A stretch of DNA of 38,018 nucleotides from Pseudobutyrivibrio sp. (GTDB lineage: Bacteria > Bacillota > Clostridia > Lachnospirales > Lachnospiraceae), in contig JAILAV010000111.1 in assembly GCA_024681435.1 (NCBI GenBank), forward strand, positions 1 through 38,018. Direction: 5' to 3'. Within the stretch, counting starts at the first letter, position 1. The number at the start of each line of letters is the position of its first letter. Position numbers and translations under genes: made by a program. A model generated the notes under the pieces. It was not told where the DNA came from, did not search any database, and saw only the letters and a program-made list of their open reading frames with translations. Positions 36,890 through 38,018 of this stretch are shown here, one piece after another.

Positions 36890-37129
36890 ATGGAGCGCGA
36901 AGATTTTGACAAAGTACGTGAATCAGTTAGATCACAGTGCGGTAGTAGAGTTGTTATTCAGTTAGACAGAGGCCGTAACAAGGTTGACATCCAACAAGGT
37001 GTTATCCAGGAGGCTTACCCTAGTGTCTTCACTATCTTAGTTGACGACACAGAGACTAGCCCTTCACAGTTACTTTCTTTTAGCTATACAGACATCATTA
37101 CAAAAGAAATACGCATGAAACTTTGCTAA
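36890..37129 (+). CDS. veg: Veg family protein
   Basis: 79 residues from ATG 36890, chosen for the AAGGGGGAG ribosome site; a reading frame extending upstream would run through the promoter. The Veg family is recognisable by VRSQCGSRVVIQLDRGRNK near the N-terminus and VFTILVDD and SFSYTDIIT later. Veg is a small Firmicutes protein that promotes biofilm matrix expression in Bacillus subtilis; the mechanism is poorly known. It has its own strong promoter and terminator and so is transcribed alone. Confidence 0.94.
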   Translation: MEREDFDKVRESVRSQCGSRVVIQLDRGRNKVDIQQGVIQEAYPSVFTILVDDTETSPSQLLSFSYTDIITKEIRMKLC

Positions 37130-37178
37130 TCAAGCAGACTAGTTATGACAAATAAAATTGAATATTGAGAATTTAGAG

Positions 37179-37207
37179 CCATCGGATATCCCGATGGTTT
37201 CTTTATT
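37179..37207 (+). terminator. Terminator of veg
   Basis: CCATCGG-ATATC-CCGATGG (37179-37197) is a perfect 7-bp GC-rich stem followed by TTTCTTTATT. The T-tract includes the left copy of a 9-bp direct repeat that flanks the giant inverted repeat. Confidence 0.9.
37199..37207. repeat. Left copy of flanking 9-bp direct repeat TTCTTTATT
   Basis: TTCTTTATT occurs at 37199-37207 and again at 37839-37847, 4 and 6 bases outside the two ends of the giant inverted repeat. It could be a target-site duplication made on insertion into the T-tract of the veg terminator; chance is possible in AT-rich DNA. Confidence 0.45.
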
Positions 37208-37211
37208 TTCT

Positions 37212-37832
37212 GTTACTATTCACGGTGTCCCCTATAATACATGGCGCCCGCCCTCATGGGCCTCCCGCTGGCTGCCGGGATAACAATCTCGCGAATATTA
37301 TAGTTTTTCAATATGCAAGTAGTGAGCATCTTACAAGTGTCTTTTGTTGGATGAACCATTTTGTATGAATGTTAGTTGTCATACGGACATTTTATGGGTC
37401 CAATATTATGGATTTTCAATCTCAAGGATACTTGGTTTCATACTTCATTTGCTAAGAAAAATAAATAAAAGTAGATTTTGTATATATAAATACCGTCCTT
37501 AAACTCAGTCCGTTTCGTTGTCGGGCTCTCGGCGCCGTCCTTGGCGCCTCGTATTTATATATTTCAAAATCTACTTTTTATTTTTCTAAGCGCATTCCAA
37601 AATCAACCAAGTATTCCTTGAGTTGAAAATCCATATTAATACAAATTATGTGTGTCCGCATGACAATAACATTCAACAAAATTGTACAGACATTCAAAAG
37701 ACACTTGTTAATAAAAGATGCGCTACTTTGCATATATGAAAAACATAATATTCTTGCGAAGTTATCCCGGCAGCTAGTGGGAGGCCCATGAGGGCGGGCG
37801 CCATTTAAATTACATACACTGTGAATAGTAAC
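37212..37832. repeat. Giant imperfect inverted repeat, 621 bp, no coding capacity
   Basis: Each arm is about 280 bp (37212-37493 and 37551-37832), joined by a 57-nt loop. Perfect or near-perfect pairing blocks are: GTTACTATTCAC with GTGAATAGTAAC at the very ends; 37241-37284 with 37761-37804 (44 bp, very GC-rich, only two differences, both G-U in + strand RNA); ACAAGTGTCTTTTG (37333-37346) with 37695-37708; a TGGATTTTCAA block; and AGTAGATTTT plus ATATATAAATAC next to the loop. Differences and short insertions are scattered between blocks; pairing covers most of the length. No open frame of useful size exists. It may be a foldback/MITE-like element or the gene of a very long hairpin RNA. Confidence 0.88.
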
Positions 37833-37838
37833 TTAGTA

Positions 37839-37847
37839 TTCTTTATT
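37839..37847. repeat. Right copy of flanking 9-bp direct repeat TTCTTTATT
   Basis: Matches 37199-37207 exactly. The stretch from here to 37941 is AT-rich and shows no clear promoter or terminator. Confidence 0.45.
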
Positions 37848-37941
37848 GAAAATGGGAGCCATAACTTGTATCATAATATTGAGAGATTATGAGAATTTGC
37901 ACTAGATATTGGGTTTTACCTGAAGTTTGGAGATAGTGTTT

Positions 37942-38018
37942 ATGAAATACAAGAAATTACTTAAGCCCGTGATATGCATTGCAGTAGCATGTTGCGTTTT
38001 TGCATCAGATTCAACTGT
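37942..38018 (+). CDS. Start of a secreted or lipid-anchored protein (3' end missing)
   Basis: ATG 37942 has GGAG at 37929-37932. The first 25 residues read as a signal peptide: a basic head (MKYKKLLK), a hydrophobic core (VICIAVACCVFA) and then SDST. Two adjacent cysteines in the core could allow a lipoprotein, but no clear lipobox is seen. The gene runs out of the window, so its function cannot be judged. Confidence 0.7.
   Translation, partial: MKYKKLLKPVICIAVACCVFASDST

Follow-up and report, generated by a model that had tools for sequence, protein, structure and literature searches.

A giant hairpin behind veg in Pseudobutyrivibrio is one copy of a transposable foldback family with a TwoAYGGAY RNA at its tip

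Just behind veg and its own terminator-like stem (37176-37200), the window (the whole stretch of 38,018 nucleotides of Pseudobutyrivibrio DNA analysed here) contains a single giant imperfect hairpin at 37212-37832, a complete unit of 621 bases bounded by terminal repeats. A repeat search of the window resolved its two arms into inverted blocks, the outermost being the terminal repeats and the GC-rich stem listed below, with more blocks further inward; the innermost, 37482-37493 and 37551-37562, are 100% complementary and flank a 57-nt loop. The + strand RNA folds at -330.3 kcal/mol, compared with a mean of -134.2 (sd 7.6) for 20 shuffled sequences (z -26), and the - strand RNA at -316.8 kcal/mol (z -28 against shuffles). 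No ORF of 60 or more amino acids in the ORF list of the window overlaps 37212-37832. A preliminary description made from the sequence had claimed a hairpin with arms of about 280 bp and no protein gene, and had noted that two differences in the outer GC-rich block would be tolerated as G-U in + strand RNA; the repeat search, the folds of both strands and the ORF list confirm the first two points, and by eye both differences are indeed G-T on the + strand. The parts of the element are as follows.

37212..37832, - strand (the strand of the tip RNA): whole giant foldback element, defined by inverted repeat, fold and alignment with 38 relatives.
37212..37228, + strand: left terminal inverted repeat GTTACTATTCACGGTGT, a 17-nt block with 94% complementarity to its partner at the right end; 26 of 29 Pseudobutyrivibrio genomes contain its motif GTTACYATTCACNG.
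37816..37832, - strand: right terminal inverted repeat, defined by complementarity to the left end and by recurring ends; 3 of 8 flank bases match.
37238..37284, no strand: outer GC-rich stem, left arm, a 47-nt block whose complementarity to the right arm is 94%; both arms have changed together relative to the copy on contig C81.
37761..37807, no strand: outer GC-rich stem, right arm, pairing with the left arm and changed together with it relative to the C81 copy.
37293..37440, no strand: middle stem, left arm, with internal loops common to both copies of the window genome (repeat search, copy comparison, alignment).
37602..37753, no strand: middle stem, right arm (same evidence).
37441..37601, - strand: TwoAYGGAY RNA (RF01731), the hairpin tip; 55.5 bits, gathering cut-off 43, E 1.2e-06 over the window.
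37531..37548, - strand: hairpin GGCGCC-AAGGAC-GGCGCC with a CsrA-site-like A-N-GGA loop (model alignment, fold); the A and the GGA are invariant across 39 aligned copies.
37508..37513, - strand: second motif ACGGAC, outside any stable hairpin in the window copy (model alignment; the fold leaves the motif weakly structured).

TwoAYGGAY is the sole Rfam match above its cut-off in the window. The lesser Rfam hits around it, MIR8562, sroD, 2dG-I and Yar_1, score far under their cut-offs and were rejected. The preliminary description was therefore wrong in stating that the locus matches no structured RNA that can be named, and its 57-nt loop, present where it was placed, is not featureless, being part of this known motif on the - strand. 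The Rfam model has 168 positions, and the tip accounts for 161 of the 621 bases; to the motif the window element adds the giant stem, the terminal repeats and mobility. Hairpin 1 has the A-N-GGA loop of the family, in the form AAGGAC instead of AYGGAY, while the second motif, ACGGAC, is present in a region for which the fold gives no stable hairpin. We liken the loop of the hairpin at 37531-37548 to a CsrA site on the basis of the consensus of such sites. RF01731 shares Rfam clan CL00106 with E. coli csrB, which was fetched as a yardstick.

TwoAYGGAY has been known since 2010, when the discovery table of Weinberg et al. listed it as probably an RNA, with 'n' under cis-regulation (PMC2864571); passages of the papers covered here still call its function unknown. 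In a 2014 paper it was proposed as a CsrA-binding RNA of Clostridia, and its external stem in Rfam 11 was described as 'not well conserved' (PMC4333381). The main-text passages that name TwoAYGGAY in the papers covered here mention no giant stem, terminal repeats, target duplications or mobility.

Large inverted arms around the motif are the rule. A first set comprised 30 RF01731 loci from 20 genomes: the window genome and, of the 20 other family carriers, 19 (L022 was excluded). Of these loci, 29 form the tip of a hairpin with inverted arms of its own, with spans of 213-702 bp; at the sole exception, L019, the best pairing partner is a neighbouring copy. In a wider set, the arms close over the core in 67 of 73 loci, the others being L019, L039, L044, L047, L057 and L066, of which L039 and L044 score under the family cut-off. 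In Pseudobutyrivibrio, the genus to which named relatives of the neighbouring gene point, and in the genus of genome G066, most spans measure 500-800 bp; elsewhere 200-350 bp is the usual range, and each group has exceptions. Of 130 cores found by a model that itself contains these loops, 122 have at least one GGA hairpin loop on the sense strand, compared to 5 on the antisense strand and 32 after shuffling. Two or more such loops are found in 44 of the 130 cores. The second loop is lost in the main subfamily of genome G157 (39-copy alignment) and weak in the window copy by folding, and the first is intact even where the terminal repeats of a copy have changed.

The element is present at many unrelated places. 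A second copy in the window genome, on contig C81, lies between a potassium-channel-like gene and another ORF and is 92% identical inside. We observe RF01731 matches in 27 of 29 Pseudobutyrivibrio genomes, with 1 to 49 matches each; the 49 of G157 are a lower bound, with 66 of 91 candidates scored. In a Lachnospiraceae sample of 150 genomes, one per genus, 21 genomes carry RF01731, including one (G086) with 31 matches, and a class-wide sample of 391 genomes yields 36 carriers from 12 families, with 27 scoring over the cut-off; carrier counts from these large searches are lower bounds, as filters were strict and few candidates per genome were scored. A blastn search of the element against phage and plasmid collections yielded no match.

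The site behind veg can be read in 28 genomes. It is empty in 13 of them, with a gap of 62-131 bp, and holds a longer insert in 9; in the other 6 its distal flank could not be located. Three of the nine inserts contain a TwoAYGGAY hairpin: those of the window genome, of G157 (in the opposite orientation) and of G155. The insert of G163 is the G155 hairpin minus its apical part, and by eye the remaining five are two elements of about 190 bp with the same terminal repeats, one partial hairpin and two unrelated sequences. At this locus the outer hairpin is the same in G163 (L089) and G155 (L093), and the junction where L089 lacks the apical TwoAYGGAY part is asymmetric and lies at a short homology; by eye it looks like a deletion between the arms.

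The terminal repeat GTTACYATTCACNG often occurs as convergent pairs in the genus. Among 46 regions of G157 (45 found by RF01731 match and one, L139, by its terminal repeats), 17 have end pairs with no more than two mismatches each to GTTACCATTCAC, and 4 of these 17 copies are flanked by perfect 8-bp target duplications, plus one by a 7/8 match. With permuted flanks, 0 of 272 comparisons were perfect over 8 bp and 2 of 272 reached 7 or more. Besides 8 bp, no duplication length from 4 to 12 stands out in the G157 set. Nine other terminal-repeat units, including the window copy, show one perfect 8-bp duplication (L125), two 7/8 matches (L128 and L135) and six matches of 5 or less; the window copy itself has no target duplication. 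L125 (contig C197 of G163) is a 2345-bp unit inside GTTAC terminal repeats that contains an IS110-family transposase gene, has no RF01731 match and is flanked by the perfect 8-bp duplication TGGTTTTT. In a further 46 RF01731 hairpins, with small boundary shifts allowed, perfect direct repeats were found in 3 and none in 43, the three being L061 (8 bp) and, both in other families, L234 and L236 (10 bp).

Taken together, the scatter of copies over unrelated loci, the empty sites, the terminal repeats and the 8-bp duplications identify a non-autonomous foldback, MITE-like element, and they support the foldback alternative of the preliminary description. We consider it very probable that the window hairpin is a mobile foldback element with a TwoAYGGAY tip, and conclude that it is one copy of a transposable foldback family with many copies in rumen and gut bacteria. 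Bacterial MITEs and foldback elements share with it the lack of coding sequence, the terminal inverted repeats, the duplications (seen in the family), the many copies and the empty sites. It differs from them in being almost all stem, in its shared internal loops and conserved RNA tip, and in that an autonomous partner was not found.

The sole candidate partner that was examined is L126, a 1710-bp insertion sequence (IS) with a DDE_Tnp_1 transposase, located in GTTACTATTCAC repeats. It was rejected because its relatives have other ends, CAATGTCATTAAGTTAA, and make duplications of 9-11 bp, so that the GTTAC palindrome is the target of this IS. A comparison of the L126 transposase with solved structures gave no match, and the terminal-repeat string CTGTGAATAGTAAC was absent from the searched literature.

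Several other element types were observed as well. In Pseudobutyrivibrio, the DDE_Tnp_1 IS family with ends like CAATGTCATTAAGTTAA is present at L251-L255, L257, L262, L264, L270 and L273; 9 of the 10 copies are flanked by exact duplications of 9-11 bp, and L262 has none. This IS targets hairpins, among them several stems that look like terminators and, in two cases in G177 (L270 and L273), the AYGGAY loop of a TwoAYGGAY hairpin; the two interrupted tips have lost their Rfam match. Elements of about 192 bp (L281-L300, L098 and L099) have the same ends, GTTACTATTCACAG...CTGTGAATAGTAAC, but enclose a different interior that is conserved and rich in hairpins, and they occur in both orientations; none of 20 has a perfect 8-bp duplication and one has a 7/8 match, which gives no support for mobility. 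Outside the family of the window genome, L234 (G202, family f29) and L236 (G214, family f40) are TwoAYGGAY hairpins of 275 and 285 bp whose perfect 10-bp direct repeats suggest mobility with another duplication length. Giant TwoAYGGAY hairpins with other ends, TAGGGACGGATACC, are found at L036, L042, L053 and L056 of G066, which belongs to another genus.

How do arms of this length stay paired? We aligned 39 giant hairpins, namely both copies of the window genome and 37 regions of G157; the other nine of the 46 G157 regions, L139, L147, L149, L150, L152, L187, L188, L192 and L196, were excluded for short, cut or odd arms. Both-side changes are observed in 113 of the 155 pairs counted, and 95.2% of cells are paired, compared with 81.0% in shuffles and 33-46% with partners slid, although taking the structure from this very alignment biases the result in its favour. 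G-U makes up just 2.2-2.6% of standard pairs. In the outer stem, copies that are 6-9% divergent elsewhere show 661 two-sided and 148 one-sided changes, about half of them transversions, and nearest neighbours show 184 two-sided against 111 one-sided changes; between L154 and L148 the whole outer stems differ in both arms. The middle stem behaves differently below 6% divergence, with 149 one-sided versus 9 two-sided changes and no preference for G-U (47 G-U, 62 A-C). Older comparisons of the middle stem keep more G-U (989 versus 466), in sequence pairs that are not independent.

Mismatches were also counted per strand in 108 elements. This count left out the six loci named above whose arms do not close over the core, the duplicates L058 and L084 (of L143 and L144), and L139, L187, L188, L022-L024, L026 and L079-L083; as the core end was set at position 1665 for all search loci, core/stem borders can be a few bases off. 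Isolated stem mismatches on the TwoAYGGAY strand are G-U in 111 cases and A-C in 66 (p 0.0009), with 51 elements leaning to G-U, 22 the other way and 35 ties. All stem mismatches together show no G-U lean (345:328; 190:190 in an earlier count). Mismatches in the core lean to G-U (63:41, p 0.039; earlier 48:23), in cores picked by a model that scores pairs. The alternative of selection for an RNA duplex, raised in the preliminary description, is thus favoured by the curated RNA tip and the isolated mismatches and disfavoured by the total of mismatches and by the young changes of the middle stem. Two-sided outer-stem changes, scarce G-U and the lean of isolated mismatches point to rewriting of the outer arms at the DNA level with weak selection on the RNA strand. 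Arms that change in concert, the outer ones as blocks, fit either templating of one arm on the other or selection on the structure. A paper on RNA genes proposes template switching as a source of multibase compensatory changes without wobble intermediates, as seen here (PMC8794818); the present stem lies in a 0.6-kb mobile DNA. Most likely, the outer arms are rewritten together by template switching or by insertion into older palindromes. The preliminary description had further set many copies with empty sites, as marks of a mobile element, against compensatory changes, as marks of a structured RNA; the outcome was mixed, with many copies and empty sites on one side and compensatory changes on the other.

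The presence of TwoAYGGAY is associated with that of CsrA. In the family sample of 150 genomes, CsrA is found in 81 (79 over the cut-off): in 20 of 20 RF01731 carriers other than the window genome and in 61 of 129 non-carriers (Fisher 2.4e-06, or 2.2e-05 including the window genome, kinship ignored). In the class sample of 391 genomes, which shares a few genomes with the family sample, the corresponding values are 30 of 36 and 94 of 355 (Fisher 2.5e-11, kinship again ignored). Within the genus, all 28 other genomes have CsrA, RF01731 carriers or not; the search of the window genome, which is 81% complete, gave 0 matches. The class carriers without a CsrA match are G000, G355, G396 and G435 (80-88% complete), G453 (95%) and G496 (98%). 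CsrA in such bacteria accompanies flagella, and the link observed here includes any flagellar effect. The co-occurrence fits a CsrA-decoy role without proving one. The CsrB/RsmZ decoy RNAs (RF00018, CL00106) resemble the tip in clan membership, in GGA within hairpin loops and, for the RF01731 carriers in general, in occurrence with CsrA. They differ in that the window family is mobile and multi-copy, with one or two sites per copy, whereas CsrB combines many sites in a gene present once. The TwoAYGGAY tip is a tentative candidate for a CsrA decoy, at somewhat less than even odds. We regard as doubtful, though worth stating, the larger idea of a transposable CsrA sponge, with a CsrB-like tip, up to 49 copies per genome, an almost exclusive distribution in CsrA-bearing Clostridia and arms that are re-copied continually. 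The searched literature held nothing linking CsrA with non-autonomous transposable elements and a small RNA.

Our preferred account, to which we assign a probability of roughly 0.72, is a mobile, MITE-like foldback family of Lachnospiraceae with a TwoAYGGAY tip, a putative CsrA decoy, and arms that are rewritten jointly. In this account the unit of about 0.6 kb moves as DNA and makes 8-bp target duplications, as the family shows (four perfect ones in one genome and one more in a second). By the covariance model, the tip encodes a TwoAYGGAY RNA on the strand opposite to veg. If transcribed, the long stem would present one or two A-N-GGA hairpin loops that could bind and titrate CsrA, and many copies would act jointly as a decoy; the family may thus be a sponge gene spread by transposition. 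Both outer arms would be rewritten together, either when replication switches template between the arms or when the element inserts into palindromes already present, and selection on the RNA might add a weak contribution to arm pairing.

Other explanations account for parts of the same data. The element could be purely selfish foldback DNA, its hairpin and tip serving as a cruciform or single-strand recognition structure for a transposase and its CsrA link reflecting a shared lineage of motile Clostridia. Terminal repeats with duplications, the excess of double over single changes in the outer stem with so little G-U, the even balance of stem mismatches overall, and the negative result of a search for sigma-70-like promoters on the - strand of 37100-38018 all agree with this. 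We nonetheless hold it to be rather unlikely in view of the strand lean of isolated mismatches, of a first GGA loop that is kept where the terminal repeats have changed and of a CsrA link extending over 12 families. A somewhat stronger competitor, still short of an even chance, concerns the arms: these could be older palindromes (terminators or other elements) with the hairpin inserted in their loops, so that 'concerted' arms would simply be different targets. In its favour, 10 of 38 G157 copies have flanking sequence that pairs outside the element at more than the 99% control level, 3 of the 4 G066 copies with ends TAGGGACGGATACC lie by eye between further paired flanks, and the IS of the same genus described above inserts into hairpin loops. 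However, the outer stem ACGCCCTC... is recognisable in all the young duplication-bearing copies and carries local block changes on both sides, and changes of this kind within a shared stem need rewriting, not a new target. Insertion into older palindromes may account for part of the concert of the outer arms.

We find two further readings highly improbable. A cis-regulatory leader, or an attenuator or terminator of neighbouring genes, is suggested by the Rfam type label 'Cis-reg', by the position of the window copy directly behind the terminator-like stem of veg and by the tip hairpin 37531-37548, which read on the + strand is itself scored as terminator-like. However, veg already has its own stem, and the 2010 table gives 'n' for cis-regulation (PMC2864571). 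Relative to the RNA, the neighbours of the 59 of 64 loci with ORFs on both sides are oriented -,- in 21, +,- in 18, +,+ in 13 and -,+ in 7; 39 of these 59 loci thus have a 3′ gene that runs against the RNA, an arrangement that does not suit a cis-regulator and argues against the Rfam label. At slightly lower odds still, a fixed chromosomal small-RNA gene, selected at conserved loci and with copies that are old gene duplications, would explain compensatory changes along the entire structure and a core present in many genera; it is largely refuted by the empty sites (13 of 28), the 8-bp duplications and a range of 0 to 49 matches among the species of one genus. An assembly artefact, one of the conditions under which the preliminary description would have been refuted, has a negligible chance and is refuted for the family: matches recur across many assemblies, the tip motif is in nearly all genomes of the genus, and in the 3-contig genome G177, which has 8 RF01731 matches, L070 lies within inverted arms spanning 736 bp.

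Finding TwoAYGGAY as the tip of a mobile giant hairpin that occurs mostly with CsrA shifts the focus from a cis-acting switch to CsrA binding and an effect of copy number. If the sponge reading were true, transposition would set the copy number and hence the buffering of CsrA. With dozens of long hairpins per genome, the family is also a natural set for telling arm-to-arm copying from selection on RNA, and a warning that massive covariation need not imply RNA function.

In three genomes, matches to TwoAYGGAY are often paired in -,+ order a few hundred bp apart. The 31 matches of G086 (L163-L173) include nine pairs of this kind, the 7 of G008 two and the 4 of G116 one, which raises the question of a BIME-like composite unit.
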